A stretch of 64,000 nucleotides of DNA from Oscillospiraceae bacterium. Its GTDB lineage: Bacteria > Bacillota > Clostridia > UMGS1810. Of this stretch, positions 5,484 to 53,868 are shown piece after piece. The translations under genes and the position numbers were made by a program. Positions within the stretch are counted from its first letter, which is position 1; each line of letters starts with the position of its first letter. Under the pieces are notes generated by a model. It was not told the origin of the DNA. It did not search any database and saw only the letters and a program-made list of their open reading frames with translations. Where the stretch lies: positions 1-64,000 of the forward strand of contig SVJU01000009.1 in NCBI GenBank assembly GCA_015068825.1. The letters are read 5' to 3'.

Positions 5484-5485
5484 TT

Positions 5486-5941: not shown

Positions 5942-5956
5942 TAAATAATACTTCTC

Positions 5957-32014: not shown

Positions 32015-32101
32015 GCCGATGTGATGGAATTGGCAGACGTAGCGGACTCAAAATCCGCCGGTAGCGATACCGTGCCGGTTCGACTCCGGCCATCGGCACC
32101 A
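32015..32101 (+). tRNA. tRNA-Leu (anticodon CAA)
   Basis: GCCGATG acceptor pairs with CATCGGC, encoded CCA, long variable arm, anticodon stem GCGGA-CTCAAAA-TCCGC, TTCGACTCC T-loop. Confidence 0.96.
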
Positions 32102-34021: not shown

Positions 34022-34054
34022 AAAATAATTCCTTTCTTAAAATGTCATCTTACT

Positions 34055-34088
34055 AAAAAACGGCCCAAATATGTAAGGCCGCTTTTAT
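34055..34088 (-). terminator. Terminator downstream of GH42 gene
   Basis: Minus strand GCGGCC...GGCCGTTTTTT. Confidence 0.6.
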
Positions 34089-34108
34089 TTTGAAAATAAA
34101 CTATTTTA

Positions 34109-36154
34109 TTATATCTCTTTTTTAAACACCTTTGCATCAAATGCTTCAAGTTCAAAATCACCTGTAACTATGCTGTTATCCAAAACATCGATATATGTGT
34201 CTTTTGTATTGAATTTTACTTTTTTATCGTTAAAATTCTGAACAAACACATAGGTATTTTTTTCATCATAACGGGCATTCACGCTTGTTCCGTCAACTAA
34301 TTTAAAGTCTACCACTGATTTAATGTTTGCATCGTGTAAAATTTCAGAATACAAAACATCAACAAAGCTGCCGTCATCACGGAATCCCACATAATACGCC
34401 TCGCCGTTTCCATATTTATTTTTAATAACGGCAGGAGTATTAGCATAAAAATCATTTTTGTATGTTGCAATACCCTTTCCGCCATTTTTTTCGTGAATAA
34501 CAGCGCACATATCATAAATGCGGTAATTATTTCCTTTATATTCAACATAATTTTCGTCCTGTGGATAAAGTGAATCAATTTCTTCTGCCCATGTACCAAA
34601 AACATCCATAAGCTTAGTAGCAGGGAAACCGCCTAAATATGTCATACTTTCTTCGTTTACCATTCCTGAATAATATGTTGTAACAAATTTTCCGCCATCT
34701 TTAACATACTTTTCAATCTTATCAATAAACGCATCATTTACCATATGCATCATTGGTGCAATTATTACTTTGTATTTTGATAAATCGGTGTCATAACCAA
34801 CTATATCTACACCAATTCCTCTTTTCCAGAACGGCATATGGTGCTTATACAAGGTTTTTAGAAAATTTTTGTCATCAGTATTATTAAAACCTTTTGTTAA
34901 TGTTGCACTCCACATATTTTCCCAGTCAAAGAAAAGACCTACCTCAGCTTTTGTGGTTGTGCCAATGATGTCTTTTAATCTTTCCAAATCTTTACCAAGC
35001 GATGCAACCTCTTTAAATACCCTTGTTTCATCAGTTCCTGTATGATCAACAACTGCACCGTGATACATTTCAGACCCTGCTCTTCCGGCACGCCACTGGA
35101 AATAAAGAATTGATTCTGCACCATGTGCAAGTTGCTGAATTGCAGAAAGACGATGCATATTAGGTCTTTTTAATTTGTTTACCGCTGTCCAGTTAGTTGC
35201 ACTAGGGGCATTTTCCATTATCATATATGGTTTATTTTTATAAGAACGCATAAGATTTGCAGTAAACGATGCCATATTTCCAATATAGTTTGGCCCAAAA
35301 TAGTGATGCCAGTTTGGATAATCATCATTTGAAACAACATCAAGTTCTTTTGCAAGTTCTTTATAGTTAAGACCATAAAACGAACCCATAAAGTTTGTTG
35401 TAACAGGAATATTTGGTGTATGCTCTTTTATAGCTTTTATTTCTATTTTCATAAAATCGGTTGTCTGATGCGTTACAAAGCGTTTCCAATTAAGAAGATG
35501 TGTCCAGTTACGCATTTCACCAAGCGGCGACGGTGGGTCAATCTGATCCCACGAAGTATATTTATGACCCCAGAAATTATTCCACCATGCAAAATTAAGA
35601 GCATCAAGGTCATTGTTATATCTTTCTTTAAGCCAATTTCTGAAAGCTTCTTTACACAAATCACAATGACATTCTCCGTTATACTCATTAGACAAATGCC
35701 AAAGTGCAAGCGCAGGAGAATTTTTGTATCTTTTAGCAAGCTCACCGTTGATTTTTGCGACAAGTTCACGATATTTTGGTGATGTAAAACAATGGTTATG
35801 ACGATTGCCAAAAAGATTCTTTTGACCCACTTCGTTTGTTCTTAAAACCTCGGGATACTTCTTAGCAAGCCATGCAGGACGCGCACCGCTTGGTGTACCT
35901 AAAATTACAAGGCCTCCTCTTTTTTCCATTCTCTCAAAAATATCGTCAAGATAAGAAAAATCATATTTCCCCTCTTCTGGTTCAATGGTAGACCACGCAA
36001 ACATATTAAGGGTTACCGTATTTACATTAGCCAGCTCCATAAGGCGCATATCTTCATCAATAATTTTAGGCTCGTATTGCCATTGTTCAGGGCAGTAATC
36101 ACCGCCATGCCATATAAAAGGGAAATTCGGATTAATCGGTTGATGCTTTTTCAT
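34109..36154 (-). CDS. GH42 beta-galactosidase
   Basis: WHGGDYCPEQWQYEPKIIDEDMRLMELANVNTVTLNMFAWSTIEPEEGKYDFSYLDDIFERM, ALWHLSNEYNGECHCDLC, TTYYSGMVNEESMTYLGGFP. Confidence 0.95.
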   Translation of the reverse strand: MKKHQPINPNFPFIWHGGDYCPEQWQYEPKIIDEDMRLMELANVNTVTLNMFAWSTIEPEEGKYDFSYLDDIFERMEKRGGLVILGTPSGARPAWLAKKYPEVLRTNEVGQKNLFGNRHNHCFTSPKYRELVAKINGELAKRYKNSPALALWHLSNEYNGECHCDLCKEAFRNWLKERYNNDLDALNFAWWNNFWGHKYTSWDQIDPPSPLGEMRNWTHLLNWKRFVTHQTTDFMKIEIKAIKEHTPNIPVTTNFMGSFYGLNYKELAKELDVVSNDDYPNWHHYFGPNYIGNMASFTANLMRSYKNKPYMIMENAPSATNWTAVNKLKRPNMHRLSAIQQLAHGAESILYFQWRAGRAGSEMYHGAVVDHTGTDETRVFKEVASLGKDLERLKDIIGTTTKAEVGLFFDWENMWSATLTKGFNNTDDKNFLKTLYKHHMPFWKRGIGVDIVGYDTDLSKYKVIIAPMMHMVNDAFIDKIEKYVKDGGKFVTTYYSGMVNEESMTYLGGFPATKLMDVFGTWAEEIDSLYPQDENYVEYKGNNYRIYDMCAVIHEKNGGKGIATYKNDFYANTPAVIKNKYGNGEAYYVGFRDDGSFVDVLYSEILHDANIKSVVDFKLVDGTSVNARYDEKNTYVFVQNFNDKKVKFNTKDTYIDVLDNSIVTGDFELEAFDAKVFKKEI

Positions 36155-36205
36155 TTTGTAAAAATTCCTTTCGTTATGTTTTTCTATACTTTTTTCGAAA
36201 AATAA

Positions 36206-36235
36206 GGGAGGGGATTTAAAACTCCCTCCCCTAAA
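36206..36235 (-). terminator. Hairpin/terminator between SGNH gene and GH42 gene
   Basis: Minus strand GGGAGGG AGTTTTAAATC CCCTCCC TTATT. Confidence 0.5.
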
Positions 36236-36253
36236 GGATTTGATTTAAATTTT

Positions 36254-38908
36254 TTATTCCTGTGCAAGATATGCTTTTAATTTATCTGCAATAACTCTGT
36301 GTCCATCAACGTCAGGATGAACATTATCAAGATTAAATGTAATATCTGCATTCCAGCTTTCGGTATCAATATATTTTACAGAAGTATCAGAAGCATAAAA
36401 CTCGCCTAATTGGTCAAACGCATTCGCTCTTGCAACTTTGTCTGCATCTAAAGTAGCACTTGTAATGCAGAACGGCTTCATAATATAAATAGTTGCATTT
36501 GGATGCTGTGTTTTAAGTGCTGTTACAAACGATTTGTATTTTTCAATAAACGCCGCACTCTTTGTTCCATCTGTATCATCTACAAAATAGAACTGTGTAT
36601 CGTTTGTACCAAGATTTACAAAAATCTTATCGGGATTTTCGTTTTCAAAAGCCCATTCTGATGTAGTCCAATTAGATGCATCAAGATTTGTAGGTCTTAA
36701 TGTTCTGCCGCTAAAATATGCACTTTCCATACCAATAGTAGAAGCATCAGAATCTTTAACTTTTACATAACCACTTCCATCTATTAAACCAATACCCGAG
36801 CGAGCAATAATTGTAAAGTTGTATCCAAGCTCCATAGGAACTAAAGATGAATAGTTCTTCCAGCCGTTTGCAGTTATTGAATCACCTATAAACTGAACAA
36901 CATCCGCATCCGATTCGGTTTTTGTCAATGTTGCTTCACAATCTGTGTAAATAGCATTTAAAGTAAATGGTTTTGCTTCTGCAATACTATAAACACGAAT
37001 TGAATGACTTGAACCATTTAACTGATTGTTTGCAATATCAATCTTTCCTGATGCGTTTGAATAAGTAACCTCATTACCGCCATCAATTGATACACTAAAG
37101 CTTGTAGAATCATTTATATCAAGCATCAAAGTATATGCGTCTTCTATATCAAATTCAAAATACGGACGCATCCAGTTACCTCTTTTAGCACCATTTACAT
37201 CTTCCCATCTTCCGTAATAGGTAATCCATTCCTGAGAAGGTGTATATTTAACAGTAAAGCCTTCAAGAGTTTCAACTTCGTTTTCTATGTCTGATTTTGT
37301 TATTTCAATTATATCTTTTATCGGAGATAAGGTTATTCCGTTCCAGAAAAGCACTTTTACCGTTGCATCTTCTGGCATATCTTCATTTAATGCATAACAA
37401 GCCATTTGTCCGCCATTTGTTGCACTAACATCCATAGAATCAACATCTACTGCAATTAGTTTGTTATTCTCACCATAAATGGTTGTAAACATTTTTACTG
37501 GTGTAACAGTAAAATCAAGTGGAGCTTTTACTTCGGTAAGCGCTGCAACCTGTGGGATAGTTGTGGTAACAGTATCTTTATAAAGAGTTACCTCACCTAT
37601 TGACAAACCTTCTTTAATACCTGTAATTTTAAAGTTATCAATTATAGTATTTGCACGAACTGATCTAAGTTCTATACCACCTGTTGGATATGTTGCATCG
37701 GTATATGTATAACTATAATCTGCATTGTTTATAGTAAGAGTTGCTGTATGGTCTTCAACTACAAGTTTAACAGGATATGTAACATCATTTTCACTTACCC
37801 AGCTTGTTACATTGGATGCTGCTCTCTTTTTACCGTTAGCACCATCTTTACGCCATACAATATTTTGTGAATCGGTTCTTTGTGCATCAAAGAACACGTT
37901 ATAGTCAGCAGTATTTAGCTGTCTGTGGAAGGATAATTGTAATCCAGAATTTGCAACATTCTGAACATCTGTAATTGTCATATCAAATTCTACTGTATAT
38001 TTATTTGCATAAGGCATATTAATTGCAAGTGCAGCAATTGGAGTTGTAGTATCAGTTGCTTCTAAAGCAGATAAAACAAGTTTTCCGCCTTCGATTTTAT
38101 ACTCGCCGCCACTTTGCATAAAGCTTTCGTGCCAAGCTGATTTTATATCTGTATCGAATGTATCTTCAAACACAACTTCAGGCTGTGCCGGTTCGGGCGG
38201 TGGAGGTGGAAGTTCAGCTCCATCTGCAAAAGTTATAACAGGTATCCATACAACACCCTGATTGCTTAATTTATCAGATGTAATCTGATTAGCTCCTGTA
38301 CCTATTTTTGCTCTTTGAACTTCAAAAATAAGTGAATCACTACCTGCAAGTTCAACAGCTAAATTTAAAGAATCCTTTTGATCTGCAATTCCTTCAAGAT
38401 AATACCAATCAGAAGATGTAGGCCAGATTTTTGTGCCGTTTTTTAGAATTCTTACATAAGCCTTTGTATTTGCAGATTGTCCTGCCAATGCATCAGCGGT
38501 AATTGTTGCACTTCCAACATAAGGAGATACAAATTCTTTAATTGGATTATGGAATACATTATCAGAACCATTATCCCAATTATTTCCTGCAAACCAAACA
38601 TTCTGAGTATAGTTACCTGCATCATCAGGACCGCAAATCATACCTCTTGTACGATCTGTTCCTGTTGAATACCATCTGTTATTAGATGTTGCATAAACAT
38701 ATTCAGTTACTGTATCTTCGCTACTTGTAAGTCTTCGGTATTTATAATACCAGTTATTCTGTCCCTGAATGCCCGAATAATCTTCTGAAGCATTGAATAC
38801 TAAATCCAATTCAGAATCAGTTGCAAACGCAATAAAGCTTGGACATAAAAGAGTTAATACAAGTGACAAAGCAATAACTATGCTTAATAATTTTCTCATT
38901 ATATCCAC
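36254..38908 (-). CDS. Large secreted protein: N-terminal 'QGxNNWYYxYR' module, LamG/DUF1080-like module, C-terminal SGNH/GDSL hydrolase
   Basis: Signal peptide; Pro-rich linker PPPPPEPAQPE; SGNH blocks QFIGDSITANGW, VNLGTNDTQF, DNVHPDVDGH. Confidence 0.8.
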   Translation of the reverse strand: MDIMRKLLSIVIALSLVLTLLCPSFIAFATDSELDLVFNASEDYSGIQGQNNWYYKYRRLTSSEDTVTEYVYATSNNRWYSTGTDRTRGMICGPDDAGNYTQNVWFAGNNWDNGSDNVFHNPIKEFVSPYVGSATITADALAGQSANTKAYVRILKNGTKIWPTSSDWYYLEGIADQKDSLNLAVELAGSDSLIFEVQRAKIGTGANQITSDKLSNQGVVWIPVITFADGAELPPPPPEPAQPEVVFEDTFDTDIKSAWHESFMQSGGEYKIEGGKLVLSALEATDTTTPIAALAINMPYANKYTVEFDMTITDVQNVANSGLQLSFHRQLNTADYNVFFDAQRTDSQNIVWRKDGANGKKRAASNVTSWVSENDVTYPVKLVVEDHTATLTINNADYSYTYTDATYPTGGIELRSVRANTIIDNFKITGIKEGLSIGEVTLYKDTVTTTIPQVAALTEVKAPLDFTVTPVKMFTTIYGENNKLIAVDVDSMDVSATNGGQMACYALNEDMPEDATVKVLFWNGITLSPIKDIIEITKSDIENEVETLEGFTVKYTPSQEWITYYGRWEDVNGAKRGNWMRPYFEFDIEDAYTLMLDINDSTSFSVSIDGGNEVTYSNASGKIDIANNQLNGSSHSIRVYSIAEAKPFTLNAIYTDCEATLTKTESDADVVQFIGDSITANGWKNYSSLVPMELGYNFTIIARSGIGLIDGSGYVKVKDSDASTIGMESAYFSGRTLRPTNLDASNWTTSEWAFENENPDKIFVNLGTNDTQFYFVDDTDGTKSAAFIEKYKSFVTALKTQHPNATIYIMKPFCITSATLDADKVARANAFDQLGEFYASDTSVKYIDTESWNADITFNLDNVHPDVDGHRVIADKLKAYLAQE

Positions 38909-38920
38909 CCCATATAAGAA

Positions 38921-41275
38921 TTAATTTGTAATCTGCGCTTTTGTAGTTTCTAATACAGCTTTTAGCGGAGACAAATATTTATTTGAGGTTGAATCGTTAT
39001 CCCAGAAGAAAACTTTAACCTTTGCACCATCTGCAATTGCATCAGCACTTTCAGCTTCACAAGTTAAAACCCTTCCGTTTGCAACTGTTGCAGTTATACT
39101 GTCAACAGCAACCGCAATAAGTGTATTGTCTTCAGCATTATAAACAGCCGTAATCATATTAATATCTTTTTTCACATCAAAATCAAGCGGTACTTTTACT
39201 GTAGATGTAGCGGTTATCTTGTTTGTATCAGAAACAAGTGAAACATCACCAATTGATAAACCTTCTTTTATACCTGTGATTTTAAAGTTGTCGATTACAG
39301 CATCACAACGAACTGCTCTTAACTCAATACCACCTGCGGCATATAAAGGATCAGTGTAAGTATATGTATAAGTCGAATTATTTACTTCAAGTGTTGCTGT
39401 ATAATCTTTTATTGTTAACTTGACAGCATATGTGGTATCTGTATCACCTGAATCCCATTTTTCTACATTTGATGAAATTCTTGATTTTCCAACACCACCA
39501 TTTGCACGCCAAACAATATTCTGTTTTTGTGAATCTATTAATTCTTGTCCTGCACGGGCAGCATCAAAGAACACATTGTAATCAACGCTATCTTGCTGTC
39601 TATGGAATGAAAATTGGAAACCTGAATAAATCTGCCAATCAGTAGTAGGATATCCTTCTTTTATTGTCATATCAAATTCAACTATGTATCCATTTGCATA
39701 TGGCATATCCATATAAACTCCGCAAACCGGTGATTTAAGTTTATCTTCCATTACATCTTCAACTATAGAATTTAAATTTAGTTGTTCATTATCAAAGTTA
39801 TAAGTTGCGCCGTTATTTTCAATAGATTTATTCCATTTACACAAATTTTCTTCATCATATTTAAATGTATCATTAAATACCGTTTCGTACACTGGAAGTG
39901 TTGCATCAGAAGAATATGTAATTACAGGAATCCATTTAACAGTCTGCTTTCCATCAGATAAATCTGCAGTTGTTAAATCAACACCAACAGTTCCTCTCTG
40001 CGCTTCAAAAACAAGTTTGTCACCAAATTTCAAATTTACAGATAAGTCACCAATTTGACTTGCGTATTCAGTAGTATTTCCTGAAATATCAAACCATCCA
40101 TTAGAAGGCCATATCTGCACATTATTTTTCAATATTCTTACTTTCATTCTTGAATATAGAGATTTTCCTTTTAATGTATCAGCAGTAATTTTAGCAGTAC
40201 CATTATATGGGGACACAAACACTCTTGCCGGATTATAGAATAATGTGTCAGCAGTAGTACCTTCTACATAAGTTGTAGTGGGGCTTGTTATCATCATATT
40301 TACAGCACTTGTATCAGATGGTCCTGTTATTACACCATAATTTAAGCTTTTTTCTTTCGACCATCTACCGCCATTCCAACTACTAAAATATGTATAATTT
40401 TGAAGTTCGCTTTCTTCACCATTATCAACTGTTCTATATGCATAATACCAATTATTTAATCCCTGTTCACCTGCGTAATTCACCGAAGCATTAAACACCA
40501 AATTATCAAGTGGCTTTATAGCACCTTCTGCATAGGTAATAGTTGGCTGAAAATAAATTCGTTGGTTGTCTTGGTTAACAGTCTTATCATCAAGAGGGGT
40601 TCCTAAACTATCGGTAACACCTGTTTGTGTTGCGCCAGTTAAATAATACGACTCAAATTCAAAAACAAGTTCATCATCCGCCTTCAAATCAAGTGTCATA
40701 GCAGGAAAATCATAATCTACAGTTCCCTTATAACGATAATACTCATCATCTGAAGGCCAGATTAATTCACCATTAAGAGTTAAAGTAACCTTCAAATCAG
40801 TATAAGCACTATTGCCTTTAAACATCTTTGTATCAATTGTAGCACTACCGTTATATGGAGATTTAAACTTTAAAGCAATATTTCTATGAATCTCTGTTTG
40901 TGAATCTGTTGCTGCGCGGGCAAGATGGGTTGCAAACATAGAAGCTGCAGTATCGTCCTTTGAACCAGAAATCCAAGTAGAACCCTCGCCATAATATCTA
41001 TAAACTGTGCTATTAGCATTTTTAACTTTATAATTAGACATTTCAGTTAAAGCTCCACGATTGCTTCCATCTATTTTTCTATATAAGAAATACCAATTAT
41101 TTGTACCTTGCGGGAAAGTAGTTTCCAGACCTGTAAAATCTTCTGCAAAGTCAAACACCAAATCAAGTTCCCCTTCAGTAGCAAAAACACTAAAACCAGG
41201 GCACAAAAGTGTTGCCACAAGTGTTAGGCATGCTACCAAACAAACAGCTTTTTTAAACATATTTTTCACAATCAT
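38921..41275 (-). CDS. Large secreted protein with two 'QGxNNWYYxYR' modules and LamG/DUF1080-like module; paralog of the adjacent SGNH protein without its catalytic domain
   Basis: Signal peptide; modules at residues about 36-250 and 257-455; shared FDMTI...SFHRQ...DYNVFFDA...NIVWR...IDNFKITGIKEGLSIG segment. Confidence 0.75.
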   Translation of the reverse strand: MIVKNMFKKAVCLVACLTLVATLLCPGFSVFATEGELDLVFDFAEDFTGLETTFPQGTNNWYFLYRKIDGSNRGALTEMSNYKVKNANSTVYRYYGEGSTWISGSKDDTAASMFATHLARAATDSQTEIHRNIALKFKSPYNGSATIDTKMFKGNSAYTDLKVTLTLNGELIWPSDDEYYRYKGTVDYDFPAMTLDLKADDELVFEFESYYLTGATQTGVTDSLGTPLDDKTVNQDNQRIYFQPTITYAEGAIKPLDNLVFNASVNYAGEQGLNNWYYAYRTVDNGEESELQNYTYFSSWNGGRWSKEKSLNYGVITGPSDTSAVNMMITSPTTTYVEGTTADTLFYNPARVFVSPYNGTAKITADTLKGKSLYSRMKVRILKNNVQIWPSNGWFDISGNTTEYASQIGDLSVNLKFGDKLVFEAQRGTVGVDLTTADLSDGKQTVKWIPVITYSSDATLPVYETVFNDTFKYDEENLCKWNKSIENNGATYNFDNEQLNLNSIVEDVMEDKLKSPVCGVYMDMPYANGYIVEFDMTIKEGYPTTDWQIYSGFQFSFHRQQDSVDYNVFFDAARAGQELIDSQKQNIVWRANGGVGKSRISSNVEKWDSGDTDTTYAVKLTIKDYTATLEVNNSTYTYTYTDPLYAAGGIELRAVRCDAVIDNFKITGIKEGLSIGDVSLVSDTNKITATSTVKVPLDFDVKKDINMITAVYNAEDNTLIAVAVDSITATVANGRVLTCEAESADAIADGAKVKVFFWDNDSTSNKYLSPLKAVLETTKAQITN

Positions 41276-41320
41276 TTCCTCCTTAAAATATTTTCATATT
41301 TTCATATTTTAATATTTTTA

Positions 41321-41363
41321 CTATGCGTTAAAGTGCTTAGCCGAAAAAATCTTTAACGCATAG
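41321..41363 (-). other. Intercistronic inverted repeat downstream of solute-binding protein gene
   Basis: Perfect 13-bp arms CTATGCGTTAAAG / CTTTAACGCATAG, 17-nt loop. Confidence 0.6.
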
Positions 41364-41376
41364 CTTTAATCTTTAA

Positions 41377-42933
41377 TTATTTTGCACCAGCTACACGGTT
41401 TACTTCTTCAATAAACACAGTTCCTTTTGTATCAAGCCACTGTTTTTTGAATGCTTCAAATTCAGCCGAAATATCAGCATTTTTAGACATTGTCATACTT
41501 GCAACTGCCTGCAAGGTCATATCTCCAAGTGTTTTAATATCCTGCTGAGGCATTTTTGTGTCATCAAGCTGAAGATACTTTTTAGGGTCTAAGGTTGCAT
41601 AAGTTCTTGGTGATACAAGTGAAGCTTCAACTTCTTCTCTATTCTTCACAGAATCATCAAGCTGATAATTTCTCCATCTTGCAAGGTTACCAAGCTGTGC
41701 TGCGGGAGAAACCTTAGAAAGCGACTGCTCTTTTCCGTCTGCACCTTTTGGAATTATGCTTACATATTTATCGTTTTCTTTTGTAAAGTGAACACCTTCA
41801 ACGCCCTGTTCAAAAAGTTCACAACCTTCTTCAGTAAGCATATATTCAAGAATATTTAAGATAGTATCTCTTTTTGTTTCGCTAACATCGCCTCTTATAC
41901 ATGCCATACAGAAGAATGCAAGGTTACCATCAATTCTTCTTGTGCCGTAAGGTCCTTCTAAAATTTCAAGATGTGTAAAGTAATCTTTTGCATTTGTACC
42001 TGGATATGCAGATTCAAATTTATCAAAAATCTGATTATAAACAGCTCCCATTCCATCAGGGAAAATACCAACTTTATGTGTAATGAATTTTTCATAAACC
42101 TGTTCTTGTGTATTTACAACAAAGTCAGGGTCCAGAATTCCTTCCTGGAACATTTTATGTAAGTATTCAATAGCAGTTTTCATATTATCTGTAATTGCTT
42201 CGGGCATCAATTTTCCGCTGTCATCTTTATAGAAATTATAATAGCTTGTGTTAAAGCTGTTAATCATTGGGTACATCCACCAAACACCGCCGCTTGTTAA
42301 GCCATAAGTGTCTTTTTTGCCGTCACCATCAGGGTCATTTTCGGTAAATGCTTTTGCTACTTCATAAAGCTCTTCTGTTGTTGCAGGAAGCTTTAAACCA
42401 AGTTTTTCTACCCAGTCTTTTCTGATCCAGAAGCCATGCTTATTTATGACACCATTTTCGTTTGCTTCACCGTTTTGAATTGGAAGGCCATAGTGTTTTC
42501 CTTCTGTAACAGGCAAAATATCATTATACATATTAATTGTTTTATAAAGATTTGGATATTTGTCTTCTGTTATAAAATCAGAAAGTGGAAGAAGAAATCC
42601 TTCTTTTATCCATTTTTTGTACTGAACATCTTCTGTACCTGCACAGATAAATAAATCCGGAATATCACCTGATGCAAAAAGAAGATTTAATTTTTCTCTC
42701 CATTGTGCATAAGTAGCTGTAACAGGTTCAAATTCAATTTTGAATTTTTCAGAAAGCTTATCGTATATTGGATCTTCCCCACTACCAAGAGAGTCTAAAT
42801 CCCACATAAATACCGATAACTTTAATTTTCCGTCAGCTGTTAATTCATCTTTTGCTGTTTTGGTTCCACCACAACCTGAAATGCCAAACACAAGTGCCAT
42901 AACAAGTATAAGTGCTGTGATTCTTTTTTTCAT
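41377..42933 (-). CDS. Extracellular solute-binding lipoprotein (LplA/YtcQ-type oligosaccharide ABC importer)
   Basis: Lipobox FGISGCGG; SGDIPDLFICAGTEDVQYKKWIKEGFLLPLSDFI; next to two permeases. Confidence 0.9.
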   Translation of the reverse strand: MKKRITALILVMALVFGISGCGGTKTAKDELTADGKLKLSVFMWDLDSLGSGEDPIYDKLSEKFKIEFEPVTATYAQWREKLNLLFASGDIPDLFICAGTEDVQYKKWIKEGFLLPLSDFITEDKYPNLYKTINMYNDILPVTEGKHYGLPIQNGEANENGVINKHGFWIRKDWVEKLGLKLPATTEELYEVAKAFTENDPDGDGKKDTYGLTSGGVWWMYPMINSFNTSYYNFYKDDSGKLMPEAITDNMKTAIEYLHKMFQEGILDPDFVVNTQEQVYEKFITHKVGIFPDGMGAVYNQIFDKFESAYPGTNAKDYFTHLEILEGPYGTRRIDGNLAFFCMACIRGDVSETKRDTILNILEYMLTEEGCELFEQGVEGVHFTKENDKYVSIIPKGADGKEQSLSKVSPAAQLGNLARWRNYQLDDSVKNREEVEASLVSPRTYATLDPKKYLQLDDTKMPQQDIKTLGDMTLQAVASMTMSKNADISAEFEAFKKQWLDTKGTVFIEEVNRVAGAK

Positions 42934-42999
42934 TTTCTACGCATCCTTTCATTACTTAATATATCTTTAAATAAATTTTACTCTATCTGATGTAACTCT

Positions 43000-43893
43000 T
43001 TATGCTTTAACAGCACCAACCATAACACCTTTTACAAAGTATTTCTGAACAAACGGATAAACAATTATAATCGGAACAATCGCTACTATAACAGTTGCCA
43101 TTTTTACCGATTCTGAAAGCATCATGGATTCGCTTACATATTCACCCTGCATACTGTTCATATCTGTTTTTACAAGAATATCTCTTAAAACAAGCGCCAT
43201 AGGCCAGAACTTTTTGTCATTCAGATAAAGCATAGGCCCATACCAGCTGTTCCAAAGACTAACTGCAACAAAAAGAGCAATTGTTGCAAAACTCGACAAA
43301 GACAATGGCATTATAATTCTGAAAAAGATTTTAAAATAGCTTGCGCCATCTATTCTTGCCGACTCCTCTATTTCGTAAGGAATGCTTGTAAAGAACGATT
43401 TCATAACTACCATATTATAAGTACTTATCGCATGCGGTAGTATCATAACCAAAGGATTGTCAATAAACCCTAATGACTTATATAATAAATATGTAGGAAT
43501 AAGTCCGCCGCCAAAGAACATTGTTACAATAATTATATTAAAAAGTATATTTCTGCCAGGTAAATCTTTTTTTGTAAACGCATACGCGGTAAGTGATGTG
43601 ATAAGAACCTGATAAACAGTACCTAATATTGTTACACCTATTGAAACAAAAAGGCTATTTGTAAATCTGTCGGTAGAAAGTACATATTTATATGAGTCCA
43701 TTGTAAAGCCTGTTGGTATAATCAAAAATTTTGATTTAATCGCTTCTTCAAAAGGAAGAATTGATTTTAAAAGTACATACCAGAAGGGATAAAGTGTTGT
43801 AAATGCCACAAGTGTTAAAAATACATAATTGAACACTTCAAAAACTCTGCCGCCAACACCCATTCTCTTTTTTGCCAAAGTGTTTTTTCTCAT
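43000..43893 (-). CDS. Carbohydrate ABC transporter permease (LplC/YtcP-like)
   Basis: EESARIDGASYFKIFFRIIMPLSLSSFATIALFVAVSLWNSWYGPMLYL. Confidence 0.93.
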   Translation of the reverse strand: MRKNTLAKKRMGVGGRVFEVFNYVFLTLVAFTTLYPFWYVLLKSILPFEEAIKSKFLIIPTGFTMDSYKYVLSTDRFTNSLFVSIGVTILGTVYQVLITSLTAYAFTKKDLPGRNILFNIIIVTMFFGGGLIPTYLLYKSLGFIDNPLVMILPHAISTYNMVVMKSFFTSIPYEIEESARIDGASYFKIFFRIIMPLSLSSFATIALFVAVSLWNSWYGPMLYLNDKKFWPMALVLRDILVKTDMNSMQGEYVSESMMLSESVKMATVIVAIVPIIIVYPFVQKYFVKGVMVGAVKA

Positions 43894-43907
43894 TATATAT
43901 TCCCTCC

Positions 43908-44858
43908 TTAGTATAATCCGCTGCCGCCCATTGCTTTAGACGATTTGTCGCTTGCAATAAGCATTATCATATTAATAAGGTTAAGGAATAGACCAACCGC
44001 CGTTGCTGTGGCAAATCTTCCCTGTGTTAAACCTGTTCTGTAGTTGTAGGTATCTATAATATCGCCAACCTCATAAACAGCTTCGTTATAAAGGTTGAAT
44101 ATCTGGTCAAAGCTACCTGCCATAAGTCCACCAAGTTTCATTATTAAAAGAACTGAAATTGTAGGAACAATTGATGGAAGTGTTATATAAATTATCCTTT
44201 TAAATCTGTTGGCTCCATCAATCTCGGCTGCTTCATACATATCCTGCGAAATACCAGATATTGCAGCAAGATAAATAATTGTTCCCCATCCCATTTCTTT
44301 CCAGATATCAGAAATTATAACAAGGGGTCTAAATGCCTTTGTACTTGTTAAAAAGTTTATTTTATCAAGTCCAAATTCTGCAAGAAGTGAATTTACCATA
44401 CCATCGTTTGACAAAAGCGCAAACAAAATACCTGAAATTACAACCCATGAAATAAAGTGTGGAAGATAAATGATAGTCTGAATACATCTTTTATACTTCA
44501 TAGACCCCATTTCATTGATTAACAACGATAAAATAATCGGTACGGGAAAACCAAATATCAGTCTTCCTATATTAATAATAAGTGTATTTCTGAATACTTG
44601 CCAGAACTTTGCAGATGCAAAAATTTCTTTAAAATTTGCAAGTCCTACCCATGGACTTCCCCATATGCCCTTACTTGCCCAATAATCTTTAAATGCAAGA
44701 ATTACTCCATACATTGGTCCGTAACAAAAAATGAAATAATACAAAAATGCAGGTATGAGCATTATGTAGATTTCTCTGTAACCGTACATTTTTTTAAGTA
44801 CTTCACTTCGGCTTTTTTTAACTTGTTTTTCTTTTTTTACTGCCTTAGTGCCAAACAT
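43908..44858 (-). CDS. Carbohydrate ABC transporter permease (LplB-like)
   Basis: MYEAAEIDGANRFKRIIYITLPSIVPTISVLLIMKLGG, NYRTGLTQGRFATATAVGLFLNLINMIMLI. Confidence 0.93.
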   Translation of the reverse strand: MFGTKAVKKEKQVKKSRSEVLKKMYGYREIYIMLIPAFLYYFIFCYGPMYGVILAFKDYWASKGIWGSPWVGLANFKEIFASAKFWQVFRNTLIINIGRLIFGFPVPIILSLLINEMGSMKYKRCIQTIIYLPHFISWVVISGILFALLSNDGMVNSLLAEFGLDKINFLTSTKAFRPLVIISDIWKEMGWGTIIYLAAISGISQDMYEAAEIDGANRFKRIIYITLPSIVPTISVLLIMKLGGLMAGSFDQIFNLYNEAVYEVGDIIDTYNYRTGLTQGRFATATAVGLFLNLINMIMLIASDKSSKAMGGSGLY

Positions 44859-44890
44859 AACTTACATTTTCACTCCTTATTTTAAAAGTA

Positions 44891-47800
44891 TTATTCTATA
44901 ATGTTATCGTATATAAGAGGACTGTCAACACCCGAAATATAAATTGCCTTGTTTATATCGTCAGTTATATGCTCACTCTTTTCAAAGGTGTTTCCATAAA
45001 TTTTAAGATTATTACCATTAGTTACATAAATACTTGAACGGTATTCATTTTTTTCAGGTCTTTCTTTATAACCATAAAATTTATTATTTCTTATAGTTAC
45101 ATCTTCAAAAAGGTCGATTCTTATGCCTTTTCCCATAGGATTGATAAATGTGTTATCTTCTATAAGAAGTTTACTTATAAGAGCTGTTTTTGGAATATAA
45201 CCGGGTGCAAGGTTATGAGTAAAGTTCATTACCGCTTCCTGAGCCTCAGATTTATTACAATCTATAAATGTATTATTTCTGAATATCATATTTGATGATG
45301 GAAGACCCGAAACCCAACCAACTGTAATTTCAACCTCTGTCATTGTAGCCGATGACATTGAACGCTCAAATTTATTATTTTCAATAAGTATATGGTCACC
45401 TCTTATAAGAAGATTTCTTCCAAGATTATCATGGTAGTAATTATTTCTTATAATTCCCCATGTATTCTGACCAACAGTTCTGTTTGAAACAATACAACTT
45501 TCAGGAAGGTTCTGCGGAACTTCCCTGTCAAGTTTTAGTTTAAGTCCTACATTATCAAGATACTCTGTTGAAATGATTTTTGCTTCAAAACCAGTAGGTG
45601 TAAAATCATCATTTAAAATCATCATAGTATCACCGCCGCGAAGTGGTGTAGACCAGTCCGCTTTGGTTGCAATAAGGCTGAATCTATCATCTTCTACAAA
45701 CTCAATACCTTGCGAAATTCTCTGGTGAATGTTGTTACAGTCGTCACCCATGTGACCGAATGAACAATTTTCAATTCTGTATCGGCTATCCTTTGCCTGG
45801 CCGTTACCCTGAAGTCCATCCTGCGAAGTAGATATAGGTCTTATAAGCTCTTCGCCCTCGGCAATATCAATTGTTGAATTAATCATTTGCCAGTATGTTG
45901 TCTGCATACCTTCTGATACCGATTCGTGCAGAGTATAAATTGTGTATCCGATACCACTTGTTGAACGAACATTTACATTATCAAAGGTAAAATCCTGAAT
46001 ACTGTAACCTACAAAAAAGTTTCCTCTGTATTTAAAGTATTCAAGCTTATAAAAACAACCCGGCTGAACCTGATCGTCAAGCTTACCCGTAAGCATCCAT
46101 ACTTTAAATTTATTGTCTGCCACTCTTACAGTTTTATTTGGATCAATATGATACTGTACCCTGTACTGAACATTATTAATACCATTATCGTAACCTGGAG
46201 TTAAAGTTTCGGGATCAAGAGGAGTTGTATCATTTAACGACACATCTTCTATAGGTACATAATCTCTGCTTAAATATTCAATTTCAAGATAACCTTCATC
46301 ATCATTTCTGTCAGTAACCTTTATAATATCTGCAAGATATTTTGAATCCCAGTCCCATTCATAGTTAATGTTTCTTAGTTCACATCTTTCACATTTTTCT
46401 GCACGTAGAAAATGAACAGGTGCTTTGTTTACAAATGTTGAACCCTGGCCATCTATTATAAAGTCAGAAAACTTATCAAGTCTTACAATAGTTTCGGTTG
46501 CAAAATAATAATATCCTTTTGGGAACACAAGTTTATCTGCATTAACTTCTTTACAATATGCCAGTGCATCAACAAGCATTTGATGATTGTCAAATCTGTC
46601 TTCAGGTTTATCGGTCTGAGGATTAAACTGTTTTCCGCCAAACTTGGCAAAATCAACTACGATGCCCGTTTTTTCTCTTGCAGCATAAACCTCAACATCA
46701 AGCGCAACAACAGGCAAAAGTCCTTTTGCTTCTGCTTTTTTGAACACATTCGCAAATACATGCGCCATATAATCTCTTGTGATTATTTCGTCAGGCTTGA
46801 ACATATCGTTTTCCAATTCGATAAATCCCATTTTTACAGAAGATGCAATATCTTTTTTCTCTTCATCCAAAAGATGAGCTATATCAGAAATCAAAGATAC
46901 ATCGCCTGAATCGTTATCAAGACCTGTCGCATTTTTATAAGCTCTTACACTAATTGCTGCAAGCTCTTTTTTTGTTATGTTTTCACCCGGATTTATATTA
47001 TTTCCGTCCACAATATAATCTGCAATAAGATTTGCAACCGAAGCGGTTCTTATATAACGAGAGAACCAATCTGAAACTTCAACATCGTCATAAACACCAT
47101 TTACAGGATATTCATATCCGTTAAGTCCTGCAACTTTAGGACTGTTTTTATCGCGTGCACGAAGAAGGTCATAACCCATTGCTTTTACTGCCATAGTGTA
47201 AAGCTCGGCTCTTGTTACATTATTATAAGGGTTATATTTTCCATCTCCTGAGCCTGATATATATTCTCTTGCAGCAAGATATTCTATATCTTTTTCATAT
47301 TTGTTATCTTTAATGTCATCAAACTTTGCAGCCACAACATTTACTTTGAAATCAACTTTATGATTACCGTCATTTGTAATCATTCTTACATTTGCACTGC
47401 CAGGTCTTAACCCTTTAACAGAACCATTATTAGCTTCAACAACGGTAGAATCATCACATTTTATAACAGATGATACATCATAAACGCCCTGAGGTTCTAT
47501 TTTTAAAGGAAGCCAAGCTGTTTCCCCTACTCCTATTGTAATTTCTTTTTCAATCGCCGAAGCTGATTCCATTTTTACAGGAGGGATTGGCTCAATTTTG
47601 ATATTATCAAGTTTTGCAGATGCGGTTGACCAGTTTTCTGATGTAAATTTAAATGTACCACTTTCAAGGTCGGTATCCATAGCAGATATAAACACCGCAC
47701 CATTTAAATAAAAGTCAACTTCCTTTTTCTTTACAACAAGTTTTATATTAACCTTATCGCCAAGTGTAAAGGTATAATTACCCTTCTCACTAAGCCACGT

Positions 47801-48268
47801 GGTTTTTCCATCTTTTATCTTTCTTATTGACAAAATTGCTTTTGCTTCATTTACGCAAATCATTGCTGAATAATAATTTCCGTCTTTTACTCTGTAATTT
47901 ATTCTGAACCAACCATATTCAGTCATTATAAGGTCAGCTTCAAACACAAAGTCTGTCCATTCTTCATCTATTATTGCAGATGTTCCGTTAGGAATGTAAA
48001 TCATCTGATTTTCATTTTGTGTGCTTTCATTTGCAATGCTTACCTTGGATGAAGTAGAATCAACAGGATTCAACCTTGCCGGAATTTCACCATTTTCAAA
48101 ATCAGCAAAAAAAGGATCCGGAATGGTAAAAGCTTCTGAATCAGGTACTTCAACATCTTTTAAAGTTATGTTACATCTTCCGTCAGCAAATACAACACTT
48201 GGAAGAAGCATTACCATACAAAGAAGAATGCTTAAAATCCTTTTCATATATTTTCCCCCTTTTAACAA
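44891..48268 (-). CDS. SLH-anchored right-handed beta-helix protein (putative glycoside hydrolase/polysaccharide lyase)
   Basis: Signal peptide, LamG-like and Big-like segments, SLH repeats (FDDIKDNKYEKDIEYLAAREYISGSGDGKYNPYNNVTRAELYTMAVK), C-terminal beta-helix repeats (LLIEDNTFINPMGKGIRIDLFEDVTIRNNKFYGY). Confidence 0.8.
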   Translation of the reverse strand: MLKGGKYMKRILSILLCMVMLLPSVVFADGRCNITLKDVEVPDSEAFTIPDPFFADFENGEIPARLNPVDSTSSKVSIANESTQNENQMIYIPNGTSAIIDEEWTDFVFEADLIMTEYGWFRINYRVKDGNYYSAMICVNEAKAILSIRKIKDGKTTWLSEKGNYTFTLGDKVNIKLVVKKKEVDFYLNGAVFISAMDTDLESGTFKFTSENWSTASAKLDNIKIEPIPPVKMESASAIEKEITIGVGETAWLPLKIEPQGVYDVSSVIKCDDSTVVEANNGSVKGLRPGSANVRMITNDGNHKVDFKVNVVAAKFDDIKDNKYEKDIEYLAAREYISGSGDGKYNPYNNVTRAELYTMAVKAMGYDLLRARDKNSPKVAGLNGYEYPVNGVYDDVEVSDWFSRYIRTASVANLIADYIVDGNNINPGENITKKELAAISVRAYKNATGLDNDSGDVSLISDIAHLLDEEKKDIASSVKMGFIELENDMFKPDEIITRDYMAHVFANVFKKAEAKGLLPVVALDVEVYAAREKTGIVVDFAKFGGKQFNPQTDKPEDRFDNHQMLVDALAYCKEVNADKLVFPKGYYYFATETIVRLDKFSDFIIDGQGSTFVNKAPVHFLRAEKCERCELRNINYEWDWDSKYLADIIKVTDRNDDEGYLEIEYLSRDYVPIEDVSLNDTTPLDPETLTPGYDNGINNVQYRVQYHIDPNKTVRVADNKFKVWMLTGKLDDQVQPGCFYKLEYFKYRGNFFVGYSIQDFTFDNVNVRSTSGIGYTIYTLHESVSEGMQTTYWQMINSTIDIAEGEELIRPISTSQDGLQGNGQAKDSRYRIENCSFGHMGDDCNNIHQRISQGIEFVEDDRFSLIATKADWSTPLRGGDTMMILNDDFTPTGFEAKIISTEYLDNVGLKLKLDREVPQNLPESCIVSNRTVGQNTWGIIRNNYYHDNLGRNLLIRGDHILIENNKFERSMSSATMTEVEITVGWVSGLPSSNMIFRNNTFIDCNKSEAQEAVMNFTHNLAPGYIPKTALISKLLIEDNTFINPMGKGIRIDLFEDVTIRNNKFYGYKERPEKNEYRSSIYVTNGNNLKIYGNTFEKSEHITDDINKAIYISGVDSPLIYDNIIE

Positions 48269-48269
48269 A

Positions 48270-50816
48270 TTATTTTATGCAAAGTACAATCATTTTTGCC
48301 GCTTCACATCTTGATGCACTGTCTTTTGGATTAAAGAATCCATTATTGCCTGAAACTATACCATTTGCAAACAATACTTTTACCGCATTAAGTGCATAAT
48401 CTGAAATATTATCAGCATCTTTAAAAGAAAGATTTTCACTATCTGTTAAAGAAGGAAATGCCCTTGATAGAATAAGAGATAAATCCTCTCTTGTTATTTG
48501 AGAATCAGGATAAAATTTTGTTTCGCTGACGCCATTAACCAAACCATTTGTATATGCTATATTTACATATTTATAATACCAGTCATTTTTGTCAACATCT
48601 TCAAATGCTATTTCTGATTCCTTTTCAAGTTTAAGAACTTCAACCAGAAGCTTTACAAACTCAGCCCTTGTAATTTTTACATCAGGATTAAAGTTTCCTT
48701 TATCATCGCCACTTACTGCACCAAGTGAATATAGCTTTTCAACATAATCAAATGCCCAATGTTCTTTTGGTAAATCTTCAAAATGTTGTTTTATATTTTC
48801 GTTAGTATTTGTTTGTGGTACTTTATTTACTGGTGAAGTAACAACCATACCCGATGCAATTGAGCCAGGTTTTCTTGAAGATGAAGAACCACCGCCTGAT
48901 GAACCTGATGAACTTGGTCTTGAAACTGTAACATAAGGATTAACCTTTATAGTGTATATTTTTTCGGTTTTATCTTCTGCCACTACTTTATATTCAACTT
49001 CATTTGTAAAATCATTTTCAGTTGTACCACTTACCTGAAGTGTTTCGCCAACATAAGCCAAAGCTTTATCCGATATTTCAAACATAGCAATCATACTTGT
49101 GATATCGGTTGTTTTTGTAAGGTCAACTGTTATCTCATTTCCAACAATTCTACCATTGACACCGTCTAAAGAGAACATTGTCATGTCACACAAGTCAAGC
49201 GCTCTTATATAATCACATTCTGCACTTAAGTTTTCTATTGAAATTGAAACAGTAAATTTTCCACTTTCAAGTTCATAAGGTATTGTATGTTCTACTTTAA
49301 AATTACCTTTTTCATCAACATTGGCAGTTTCGGTTGCAGAATAATTTTCAGGACCCGTAATGCCTATTGTTGCTGTTTGGTTTTTAAGGTTATATACCAT
49401 TCCGTCAATTGTAAGAATTTTTGTAGCTGTATCGGCAACTCCTCTTATATATGCAAAAGAACTCATTACACTTGCCATTCTTGCTTCAAAAGCAGCCAAA
49501 GCGACTTTATTTGAAACAAGTTCTATTTTTTCAAACGCTGTTGCAACATTATCCGCATTTGTATCGGCAACTGCTGTGTTTATAGCAGTTTCGGCATCAC
49601 CGATAAGTAAAAGCTGTGCATCATCTTTTTCAATTGCTTCAATTGCAATGTCTTCAATTGTTACTGCATTGTCAGTGCGAATTGCAACATTGCCACTTTG
49701 AACATTTTCATTTTTATCAAAATATGATATTACTTCAACACCATCTACAAAAGCTGCTGTATATGTTCCGTTATCAAAATTATAAGCTGCCGCTTTTACC
49801 AGATATGATGTATCGGCATCAAAAGTATATGTTACACCAGCTTTTTCCACACCATCTTTTAAAATTTTAACACCTGCACTATTTACGCAAACAGAATATC
49901 CGTTTCCTTCATCATAATAAGGATATATATTTACATTACCTGTCAAAGAAGCAGGTTTAATTTTTGTGCAAACAGCTAAATTGGAAAATTCACCCGACAT
50001 CGTTAAAGTATCGGCTGAAGATGATGTTAACCCGCTTTCAGATACTGTAAAACTATTGTTTTCATCTTCCCAGCCATATTTTTCGCCAGCAAAATCATAA
50101 ACCTTTATACCAGAAAGAAAATCGTTTTTGTATGTTATAACAGGAGTCCATGCAACACCCTGATTAGCAACAACACCAGAACTAATTTCATTATCCCCTG
50201 TGCCAACGGTGGATCTTTTTACCTCAAAAACAAGAGTATCATCCTTCGAAACTACTTTTTCAATAGAAGAAAAATCCACATTGCCATTACCAGTAATAAA
50301 ACGCCAGTCATCTGATACAGGCCATATTTTTTCGCCGTTGTGAAGTATTCTTAAATATGCTTTTGTGTTCGCACTTTGACCATGTAAAACAGATGCTCCT
50401 ATTTCTACAATACCTGTATATGGAGCTTTAAATTCCCTTGCAGATGTGTATAAAACAGTATCACTGACTACTCCACTTACTTTGTTTACATACATACCTG
50501 TAAACATTACATTCTGTGTCCAGTTACCTGCATCATTAGGTCCACAAATCATACCTAAATCTCTGTTTGCGCTTGTTTCAGCATACCATCTGTTATTAGT
50601 GTGATAAACAGCTTGCTGTGTAAGTTCGCCTTCAACACCATTATCAATTTTTCTGTATTTGTAATACCAGCCATTCTGCCCCTGAACGCCTGAATAATCA
50701 TCACCCGCATCGAAAACAAGCTTTTTTTCATCTGCAAAAGCTACATTTATGCAAAAGCTTGAAATAATCAATGTTATTACCAAAATGCAAGAAAAAACTC
50801 TTTTTATATTTTTCAT
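48270..50816 (-). CDS. SLH-anchored protein with N-terminal 'QGxNGWYYKYR' module and cadherin-like beta segment
   Basis: Signal peptide; module at residues about 31-229; Ser/Gly linker; C-terminal SLH repeats (FEDLPKEHWAFDYVEKLYSLGAVSGDDKGNFNPDVKITRAEFVKLLVEVLKL, then two more). Confidence 0.85.
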   Translation of the reverse strand: MKNIKRVFSCILVITLIISSFCINVAFADEKKLVFDAGDDYSGVQGQNGWYYKYRKIDNGVEGELTQQAVYHTNNRWYAETSANRDLGMICGPNDAGNWTQNVMFTGMYVNKVSGVVSDTVLYTSAREFKAPYTGIVEIGASVLHGQSANTKAYLRILHNGEKIWPVSDDWRFITGNGNVDFSSIEKVVSKDDTLVFEVKRSTVGTGDNEISSGVVANQGVAWTPVITYKNDFLSGIKVYDFAGEKYGWEDENNSFTVSESGLTSSSADTLTMSGEFSNLAVCTKIKPASLTGNVNIYPYYDEGNGYSVCVNSAGVKILKDGVEKAGVTYTFDADTSYLVKAAAYNFDNGTYTAAFVDGVEVISYFDKNENVQSGNVAIRTDNAVTIEDIAIEAIEKDDAQLLLIGDAETAINTAVADTNADNVATAFEKIELVSNKVALAAFEARMASVMSSFAYIRGVADTATKILTIDGMVYNLKNQTATIGITGPENYSATETANVDEKGNFKVEHTIPYELESGKFTVSISIENLSAECDYIRALDLCDMTMFSLDGVNGRIVGNEITVDLTKTTDITSMIAMFEISDKALAYVGETLQVSGTTENDFTNEVEYKVVAEDKTEKIYTIKVNPYVTVSRPSSSGSSGGGSSSSRKPGSIASGMVVTSPVNKVPQTNTNENIKQHFEDLPKEHWAFDYVEKLYSLGAVSGDDKGNFNPDVKITRAEFVKLLVEVLKLEKESEIAFEDVDKNDWYYKYVNIAYTNGLVNGVSETKFYPDSQITREDLSLILSRAFPSLTDSENLSFKDADNISDYALNAVKVLFANGIVSGNNGFFNPKDSASRCEAAKMIVLCIK

Positions 50817-50848
50817 ATTCCGTCCTCCTATAAACTTTGCAATTTAAA

Positions 50849-53548
50849 TTATTTGTACCTGAATATTACAAGCTCTTTAGGGCTGGCATAATCATATGTC
50901 ATAAGAACTCTGTCACCTTTTACAATATCTCCCGGAAGACCTACTTTGATTTCGTTTTCTTTTTCATCATAAATATAAATTATTGCATCAAATCTGTCAC
51001 CATCAAAGTTAACTGCTTTTTCGTTTTCTGCATCTATTATCGCGGCAACTGATGAAACTCTTACTACATCGTTATATACCATCAAAAGATCCGTTGATGC
51101 AACTCTATCTAAATCAGTATATTCGCCAAATGCATGTCTGTAGAATGTTGAAGCTTTTTTATCAGGTCTGAAAAGTATACGGAATCCGCTTATTTCACCC
51201 GAAGTATCAAGAGAATATTGAATTACATCACCTCTTTTTAAATCTTCAAGCTTAACATTCTGATACGAAACCTGAACAACATTGTCATCGGCATCGGTAT
51301 ATTGCCAACCCCATTTTTCTTCTGTACCGGTTAAATTCACAAGACCCGTTTCAGCAGCTGCAATCTTTATTTCTTTACCATTATAAAGTCCTGTTACAGA
51401 TGTTGTATGGTCGCCATTGGCATTTATCATTTTTCCAACTTTATCAACAAGCATAATTCTTGCAGTTTTTGCAACACTGTTTGAAGAGTTGCTCTTCATA
51501 ACAAGCGCACCCGCAAAATTATCTTCATCCAAATCGTAAATCTCAACGCCGTCATAATATTTATTAGTTTCAATTCCCGTTACGCTCAAAAGCTGATATT
51601 GCTTATAATCATCTACTTTTTCAGGTATACCAAATATTTTTGTTTCCGTTGCAGAGATATAATATTTACCCTGAAAACGTCTTGCTATAAAATGAACTTC
51701 ATCACCCGAAAATGCTTTTGAAAAATTGTCATAACTTGCGGTGTTGGTATGTTTAGTTATAGATTTTAAAGTTTTATCTGTGTTAAGCGAATACATTATA
51801 AGCTGATTTTCTGTAACTTTTTCGCCATCTTCTGTTTTTTGAAATTTTTCAATCAACTCAGAAGGTTCAAGTTTATCTTCAATACCATTGTAAGTAAATT
51901 TCACCTCATCAGTTGCTATATATTCTTCAACATTGCCGCTTTTATTGAATATTTTCATTATTAGTTTATTTTTTGATGCATCAGACAAATAAGCTTCTAT
52001 AAGATAGCCATAATCTTCTGTTTTCTGATTATAATCACAGGCAGCAATTTTATTTTCAACATTCAAATAAAAAATACCGTTTCTGCCAAGTTCAAAAGCA
52101 TATCCTTCTTTTTCAAAATCAGCAGAAATTTTATATTCTTTTTCGTCGATAACAACATAATCATCGCCAATGGCATTTACAGCGCCTTTAAGCTCATTTT
52201 TTACAACAACGATATTTGCATGTGAATTTGGAACACCGTTGTAATAATCTTTGCTTCCTGCAACCGAAACAATATTCCACTCTTCCAAAGAAAGATAGTC
52301 CACACTGTTTCCTTCCACATCTGTTAAAGATACATTGTCATTTATATCGAGTTCGCTGTTTTCAGCCTTAACATAAATCTTCTCATTATTTTTTGACACA
52401 TGGTCAACTGCATAGGATTTATAATCAGTTACAAACACAACATCAATTGTACCATCACTGTCATTATCAAGAAGATATACATTTCCCGAATCTGGCATAA
52501 GGTCATTTGCGGTAACATTGTTTGTATAAATCTTGCCTAAAAATACTTCGTTATAAATTACACTTGTGTTATCTCCAAGTTTTAATCTTTTTGCAACCGT
52601 ATCATTTTCATCTTTGAAATATCTGAATGAATTTTTAACGGTTTCATCACTAATTAAATCACTTTTTACAGAATAAGCAGTATTTGAATCATTTTCACGG
52701 ATAAACAATACTTTATTTGTATCTTCATCTATGTAAACCAAAGAATTAAACCCGAGATATTTTCTCTGCATTCTTTCATCTGCAACATACGCAGTATCGT
52801 TAATCACAATTCTGCCTTCGCCTGCAGCATTTTTTGAATAGATGCTTGTGTTACCATTTGATGTAATTATACCTTCTTCAACCTTTACACCAAGGTATGT
52901 ATTCAGTAAGGTTTTGCCGTCCTGAATTTTGTAATTTGTTTTTTCACCAAGAATGTCTGTTGCCATTATTTCAGTTTCGGCAGCAACAAATGCAAGATGA
53001 TATGCTTCTTCCCTTGTTATAACTTCATCGGCACTTTTACCGATGTCAAAATCCATAGCATTTGCTACTTTTAAATATCCATACGGATATCCACCTTCGT
53101 AGGTTGCACGCACATTATATCCTAAAAGCACAACCAAAGTTTTTACAAACTCTGCATAGGTGGTTTCATCCTTTGGTCTGAAAAATCCGCCATTTCCACT
53201 TATAAGATTGTTTTGATATGCATAATAAATATAATCTCCGTTTAATGAATCTGAAGCTACATCTTCAAATACCGGTTCACAAACATAACCTTTGGCAATA
53301 TCTGCTCCACCAATAAGACCAACAACAATTTTTGCCATTTCATGACGCAAAAGCGGTGCCTTTAAATTTTCCTCTTCGCTGTCATACTCTTTGATTACAT
53401 TTACCGCCTGCAAAAAAGAAGGAGCATTTGAATAAATCACTTCACCTTCAGCATAAGTACAAACCGGTGCAGTAAATAAACCTGATACCATTGATACACA
53501 CAACAAAACTAATATTAATCTTCGTTTCATTTGTCTGCCTCCCGTCAC
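50849..53548 (-). CDS. Large N-terminal SLH-domain surface protein
   Basis: Signal peptide; VFEDVASDSLNGDYIYYAYQNNLISGNGGFFRPKDETTYAEFVKTLVVLLGY; long beta-rich C-terminus like 25830..28823. Confidence 0.82.
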   Translation of the reverse strand: MTGGRQMKRRLILVLLCVSMVSGLFTAPVCTYAEGEVIYSNAPSFLQAVNVIKEYDSEEENLKAPLLRHEMAKIVVGLIGGADIAKGYVCEPVFEDVASDSLNGDYIYYAYQNNLISGNGGFFRPKDETTYAEFVKTLVVLLGYNVRATYEGGYPYGYLKVANAMDFDIGKSADEVITREEAYHLAFVAAETEIMATDILGEKTNYKIQDGKTLLNTYLGVKVEEGIITSNGNTSIYSKNAAGEGRIVINDTAYVADERMQRKYLGFNSLVYIDEDTNKVLFIRENDSNTAYSVKSDLISDETVKNSFRYFKDENDTVAKRLKLGDNTSVIYNEVFLGKIYTNNVTANDLMPDSGNVYLLDNDSDGTIDVVFVTDYKSYAVDHVSKNNEKIYVKAENSELDINDNVSLTDVEGNSVDYLSLEEWNIVSVAGSKDYYNGVPNSHANIVVVKNELKGAVNAIGDDYVVIDEKEYKISADFEKEGYAFELGRNGIFYLNVENKIAACDYNQKTEDYGYLIEAYLSDASKNKLIMKIFNKSGNVEEYIATDEVKFTYNGIEDKLEPSELIEKFQKTEDGEKVTENQLIMYSLNTDKTLKSITKHTNTASYDNFSKAFSGDEVHFIARRFQGKYYISATETKIFGIPEKVDDYKQYQLLSVTGIETNKYYDGVEIYDLDEDNFAGALVMKSNSSNSVAKTARIMLVDKVGKMINANGDHTTSVTGLYNGKEIKIAAAETGLVNLTGTEEKWGWQYTDADDNVVQVSYQNVKLEDLKRGDVIQYSLDTSGEISGFRILFRPDKKASTFYRHAFGEYTDLDRVASTDLLMVYNDVVRVSSVAAIIDAENEKAVNFDGDRFDAIIYIYDEKENEIKVGLPGDIVKGDRVLMTYDYASPKELVIFRYK

Positions 53549-53712: not shown

Positions 53713-53868
53713 ATTATCATTGATAACAATTCTCTTATTTTTGTTTTAGGACTATTCCTGTTTTTTTCCTTTAAACAAGTGCTTTTAATCTTTTTAAAAA
53801 ACAATTAAAATTATACATAGTTCTCTTATTTTGGCAAAAGTATGCAAACAAACCAAGGAGTGATTTTT

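Follow-up and report, generated by a model that had tools for sequence, protein, structure and literature searches.

A candidate carbohydrate-binding jelly-roll module repeated in the secreted proteins of an S-layer-associated glycan-uptake-type locus

Gram-positive polysaccharide utilization loci (gpPULs) contain an ABC importer, intracellular glycoside hydrolases (GHs), an AraC regulator, and surface enzymes. In Bacteroidota, SusC and SusD act at the outer membrane. The locus described here resembles gpPULs in all four of their components. It lies in a 64,000-nucleotide stretch of an Oscillospiraceae contig (the window) and encodes a module of approximately 200 aa, present in four copies (A to D), for which a carbohydrate-binding module (CBM)-like role was considered.

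Gene content of the module locus

Ten minus-strand genes (32174..53548), separated by intergenic gaps of 1 to 101 bp, look like a single operon; a promoter scan of the sequence was near background (83 found versus 66 expected). Read from 53548 to 32174, the gene order is N-SLH protein, C-SLH protein with module D, beta-helix/SLH protein, two permeases, solute-binding protein, A-B protein, module C SGNH esterase, GH42, and GH129-like hydrolase. The features of the locus are as follows.

50849..53548, minus strand: 899-aa N-SLH protein, the other member of a recurrent gene pair
48270..50816, minus strand: 848-aa secreted protein with signal peptide, module D, a middle region of ~430 aa, and three C-terminal SLH repeats; the C-SLH member of the recurrent pair
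50127..50729, minus strand: module copy D, N-terminal in the 848-aa C-terminal-SLH protein
44891..48268, minus strand: 1125-aa secreted protein with Big_2-like and SLH repeats and a right-handed beta-helix (polysaccharide-lyase-like)
41377..44858, minus strand: ABC sugar importer (solute-binding lipoprotein, 41377-42933; permeases, 43000-43893 and 43908-44858)
38921..41275, minus strand: 784-aa secreted protein with signal peptide, modules A and B, and two C-terminal domains
40526..41170, minus strand: module copy A, placed right behind the signal peptide in the 784-aa protein
39911..40507, minus strand: module copy B, the second, tandem module of the 784-aa protein
36254..38908, minus strand: 884-aa secreted protein with signal peptide, module C, domains in common with the A-B protein, and an SGNH/GDSL esterase domain
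38222..38815, minus strand: module copy C, N-terminal in the 884-aa SGNH esterase
34109..36154, minus strand: GH42 beta-galactosidase (E 9e-144), no signal peptide seen
32174..34021, minus strand: GH129/DUF5696-related hydrolase (E 3e-28), last gene of the apparent operon
53842-54663, plus strand: AraC-type regulator, divergent from the operon
54772-57060, plus strand: GH2 glycosidase, on the divergent strand beside the AraC-type regulator

A sequence-only reading of this DNA had assigned the module proteins to a glycan-uptake-type cluster, and that assignment was correct, since all three are encoded in the same ten-gene minus-strand run. Behind their modules, the 784-aa and 884-aa proteins are alike (47% identity over 256 aa and 42% over a further 69 aa). 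The 884-aa protein carries the esterase domain (E 4e-13) and a weak, subthreshold match to CE2_N (E 0.077); a search of the 784-aa protein for enzyme or anchor domains recognized none.

A tRNA-Leu(caa) gene (32015-32101, plus strand) lies directly past the last gene of the run. Because 39 related genomes have no full-length match to the beta-helix protein of the locus and the module is missing from near relatives, this tRNA may mark an insertion site; a flanking direct repeat was looked for and not found. Outside the module locus, another N-SLH paralogue (25830-28823) is encoded beside a 4-alpha-glucanotransferase-like gene (28929-30356).

Homology and distribution of the module

The existence of four homologous modules in three secreted proteins, as first noticed from the sequence, was confirmed, and each copy is translated without a stop over the coordinates listed above. 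BLASTP related C to D (E 7e-67, 50% identity), A to C (E 1e-24), and A to B (E 5e-22, 29% identity), and 37 columns were invariant in a four-way alignment. A profile of the four copies gave strong matches in the whole 2.0-Mb genome only at A to D, with E values (1e-86 to 2e-93) that are self-matches to the copies from which it was built. The module had been described as directly following the signal peptide in every protein; this is true of A, C, and D, while B follows A. It had also been described as belonging to one locus; A to D are indeed found there, but the family to which they belong is widespread. With a broader profile, two further, highly divergent tandem copies were detected on another contig (C20) of the same genome (E 3e-29 and 2e-25). 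Both reside in one 604-aa protein (L048), and the product of the gene just before it matches the window N-SLH protein (E 7e-10). In a tree of 68 modules, A to D formed one clade (support 0.998), a monophyly that traces their origin to duplication inside the locus.

The view that the module belongs to no named family held within Pfam-A, NCBIfam, and PDB, where searches with the parent proteins and with the modules found no sequence family that covers it. Within the modules, no Pfam or NCBIfam hit exceeded the cutoff; those to TMEM145_N, PUB62-63_C, and Peptidase_A4 were weak, confined to single members, and inconsistent and were rejected as chance. A genome scan identified relatives in Paenibacillus, Brevibacillus, Cohnella, Planctomycetota, Verrucomicrobia, Microcystis (cyanobacteria), and one proteobacterial metagenome-assembled genome, and iterated profiles aligned these relatives across the whole core. 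Those of the first five groups (L023-L035) are whole-core homologues of the window copies (iterated profile E 1e-20 to 1e-56) at 16 to 27% identity to copy D, which differs from them in having insertions and in lacking an HP/GDG/D polar motif. The window modules are a divergent branch of a broad family absent from Pfam-A and NCBIfam.

Few genomes of the window's own group carry the module. None of 15 genus- and family-level relatives had it, which suggests a recent gain, and a narrow profile found it in 7 of 391 genomes of the class; for the phylum the count was 5 of 399, with the window's own genome counted both times. The module profile matched an incomplete (62%) genome from a different bacterial family (G046) at least 26 times, and many of these matches come with SLH repeats or beta-helix domains (L046, L049, L050, and L097-L101).

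The relatives were found fused to GH2 with NPCBM and F5/8C domains (L045), GH10 (L043), SLH repeats (L042), a beta-helix with SLH repeats (L046), and a rhamnogalacturonase-like beta-helix (L092); a further fusion partner was weakly RG-I-lyase-like, below the cutoff (L025). As is characteristic of CBMs, the module is thus a discrete, noncatalytic unit of carbohydrate-active proteins, joined to GH2, GH10, beta-helix, and esterase domains. Relatives often occur in tandem, and several adjoin sugar ABC transporters. Three Paenibacillus proteins (L023, L028, and L032) consist almost entirely of the module, four in tandem, and the neighbors of their genes encode secreted proteins with YD-like N termini ('YLYDNAGRLVQ').

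Other relatives were in non-carbohydrate proteins, namely, a subtilase (L024) and an RHS/SpvB-type protein (L095). In the latter locus (positions 1-6906), the relative lies inside a protein of the RHS/SpvB/TcdB-middle type. Matches in plasmid records (H1-H8) were to SpvB/TcaC-annotated proteins only (35 to 36% identity over ~62% of the query), and phage records gave no match. The family is therefore not confined to carbohydrate enzymes. Taken together, its domain company is that of a CBM, with some exceptions that keep adhesion and oligomerization readings alive.

Predicted fold, conserved residues, and candidate function

AlphaFold2 monomer predictions (from inputs of 25 and 30 sequences) gave a beta-jelly-roll in both cases, copy D (pLDDT 89.8, pTM 0.89) and a canonical relative from Cohnella (pLDDT 97.0, pTM 0.92). 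The best Foldseek matches of the canonical core in the PDB were CBM35 and CBM6 domains, several of them with sugar ligands (E 2e-5 to 7e-5), and also C1q; copy D matched the same mix. The leading matches overall had E values of ~1e-5 to 1e-3 with TM-scores of only 0.3 to 0.5, and the predicted resemblance is therefore at the level of fold rather than family membership. The expectation of a beta-rich, extracellular domain thus agrees with a predicted jelly-roll closest to CBM35/CBM6 and C1q folds. CBM35 and CBM6, which bind carbohydrate and usually have a Ca2+ site, are like the module in core size, in occurring in tandem, in being fused to GH and lyase-like domains, and in their extracellular location, but the window copies are ~50 aa longer, and the TM-scores of the canonical core were only 0.4 to 0.5. 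No CBM35 or CBM6 sequence match was found with 25 members against Pfam-A at E<=1 or with the four window copies at E<=10.

Our preferred reading, to which we assign a probability of roughly 0.6, is that the module is CBM-like and targets glycans. Evidence in its favor comes from the predicted jelly-rolls, the CBM35/CBM6 structural matches, the fusions to GH and lyase-like domains, the surrounding GH/esterase/ABC cluster, and the monophyly of the window copies; the low TM-scores, the relatives in non-carbohydrate proteins, and the loss of the polar motif weigh against it. The modules would then act as extracellular jelly-roll accessory domains that are exported, N-terminal, and facing the medium on the SLH-anchored D protein, the secreted esterase (C), and the stand-alone A-B protein. 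They might hold one kind of polysaccharide close to the S-layer, where the beta-helix protein and the esterase would trim it; the oligosaccharides would enter through the coencoded ABC importer and be finished inside by the GH42, GH129-like, and GH2 enzymes. That the polysaccharide is acetylated and contains galactose is a guess from the neighboring enzymes only. Local duplication of A to D is compatible with a common ligand for several proteins of a single pathway.

C1q/TNF domains, which have this topology too, often bind proteins as trimers, and the module could instead be a C1q/TNF-like domain for oligomerization or protein adhesion, gathering secreted proteins at the S-layer or docking them to one another. 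A 25-module profile matched cerebellin C1q (E 0.05 for a single domain; E 2e-5 only for one chain of three fused copies) and GITR ligand (E 0.17) in the PDB, where CBM77 (E 0.1) was the only CBM matched. The likeness to cerebellin and BclA comprises the jelly-roll topology and at most a weak profile similarity in an F-x-A-P-x-x-G...N-G stretch; C1q/BclA matches were numerous in Foldseek, and the members within subtilases and RHS/SpvB-type proteins are also compatible with such a role. However, CBM35/CBM6 matched the canonical core equally well or better, no collagen-like stalk was seen, and the module is strongly linked to GH, beta-helix, and sugar-transport genes, so that a C1q/TNF-like role is unlikely.

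The conserved Trp and Tyr residues had been taken as evidence for glycan binding, an argument that the analysis weakened. In copy D, W21, Y23, W48, F100, W136, F168, and W194 fall within predicted strands, mostly at alternating positions, and these positions are hydrophobic in 0.97 to 1.0 of the relatives outside the window. Because this alternating hydrophobic pattern is conserved family-wide, including in the subtilase and RHS/SpvB-type members, the aromatics most likely form the beta-sandwich core, with burial deduced from strand alternation, and are evidence of the fold more than of a sugar-binding role. The window modules have the core motifs QG.N.WYY, W, (F/W).(A/S)P..G, KNG..IWP, GD...F, and W.P.I.Y. 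Canonical relatives also have a polar set (H56-P57, D61, G87-D88-G89, and D145 in reference numbering), with the C-terminal D in 25 of 27 members. In an alignment that included copies B, C, and D and left out copy A, these residues were replaced by K/W/Y, T-K/S-R, and Q, so any canonical site located there is not transferable to the window copies.

The strongest conservation in the predicted hydrophobic core and the loss of the family's polar motif would also suit a structural spacer that pushes functional domains past the S-layer and has no specific ligand. We regard such a spacer as improbable: in the SLH-anchored protein, the module forms the outer, N-terminal end and does not separate the anchor from a catalytic part; the 784-aa protein has two modules and no recognized anchor or enzyme; and some residues identical across A to D differ from the rest of the family (e.g., Y25, R26, and E169), which would be odd for a mere spacer. 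Binding to the cell's own wall or S-layer glycan, for additional anchoring instead of substrate capture, would explain how the A-B and C proteins are retained without recognized SLH repeats and suits the frequency of relatives among S-layer bacteria. It is highly improbable given that the chains with copy D and with several relatives contain three SLH repeats as it is, making a second anchor redundant, and that the module is missing from the 15 related genomes, including ones rich in window-related SLH proteins.

The C-SLH/N-SLH gene pair and comparison with known systems

The 899-aa N-SLH protein was considered as a neighbor specific to module loci and rejected as such, since each of the 12 family-level genomes searched encodes 4 to 20 members of its family. 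The usual N-SLH member of the pair is ~880 aa. Among 48 N-SLH genes, from stretches picked only for holding such a gene, a gene for a C-terminal-SLH protein was immediately upstream on the same strand in 31 (gaps of −29 to 73 bp) and immediately downstream in none; for comparison, among 179 genes located further than two places from an N-SLH gene, only 2 encoded such a protein. The pair loci are window 48270-53548 and L042, L044, L102, L104, L109, L110, and L112-L150. ABC permeases similar to those of the window were near 13 of 51 N-SLH genes in the fetched stretches. The window and the related L042 locus have the pair in reversed order, and there the C-SLH partner has an N-terminal module. 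An ~85-aa beta-sandwich stretch of the D protein showed weak likeness (19 bits) to the cores of the usual partners. We read module D as a ligand domain added to one member of a recurrent surface pair.

Among the listed titles and abstracts on CBM/SLH/C1q, on SLH-anchored loci, and on new CBM families, none described the module or the SLH pair, and a term search of PMC13357471 (2026; a new CBM family from a beta-mannanase of Bacteroides cellulosilyticus) yielded nothing that ties its CBM to this module. If the modules bind glycans, they would constitute a new CBM family that spans several phyla and is missed by current Pfam-A and NCBIfam, and many secreted enzymes would be underannotated. The setting of the locus points to an S-layer-based organization of polysaccharide capture in Gram-positive-type bacteria, for which the C-SLH/N-SLH pair would be a testable marker in genomes without SusC/D.

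A more tentative proposal is that the modules are both a new CBM family and the ligand-capturing part of an undescribed S-layer-anchored glycan-uptake locus, with the C-SLH/N-SLH pair as its hallmark and SusC/D counterpart. That the pair is such an S-layer counterpart is possible by analogy only: like SusC/SusD, it consists of repeated adjacent surface-protein genes that mark many glycan-type loci per genome. No sequence relation to SusC/SusD is claimed, and the C-SLH/N-SLH pair differs in being anchored to the S-layer, with uptake by an ABC transporter. To the components shared with gpPULs, the window locus adds this pair and the new module.
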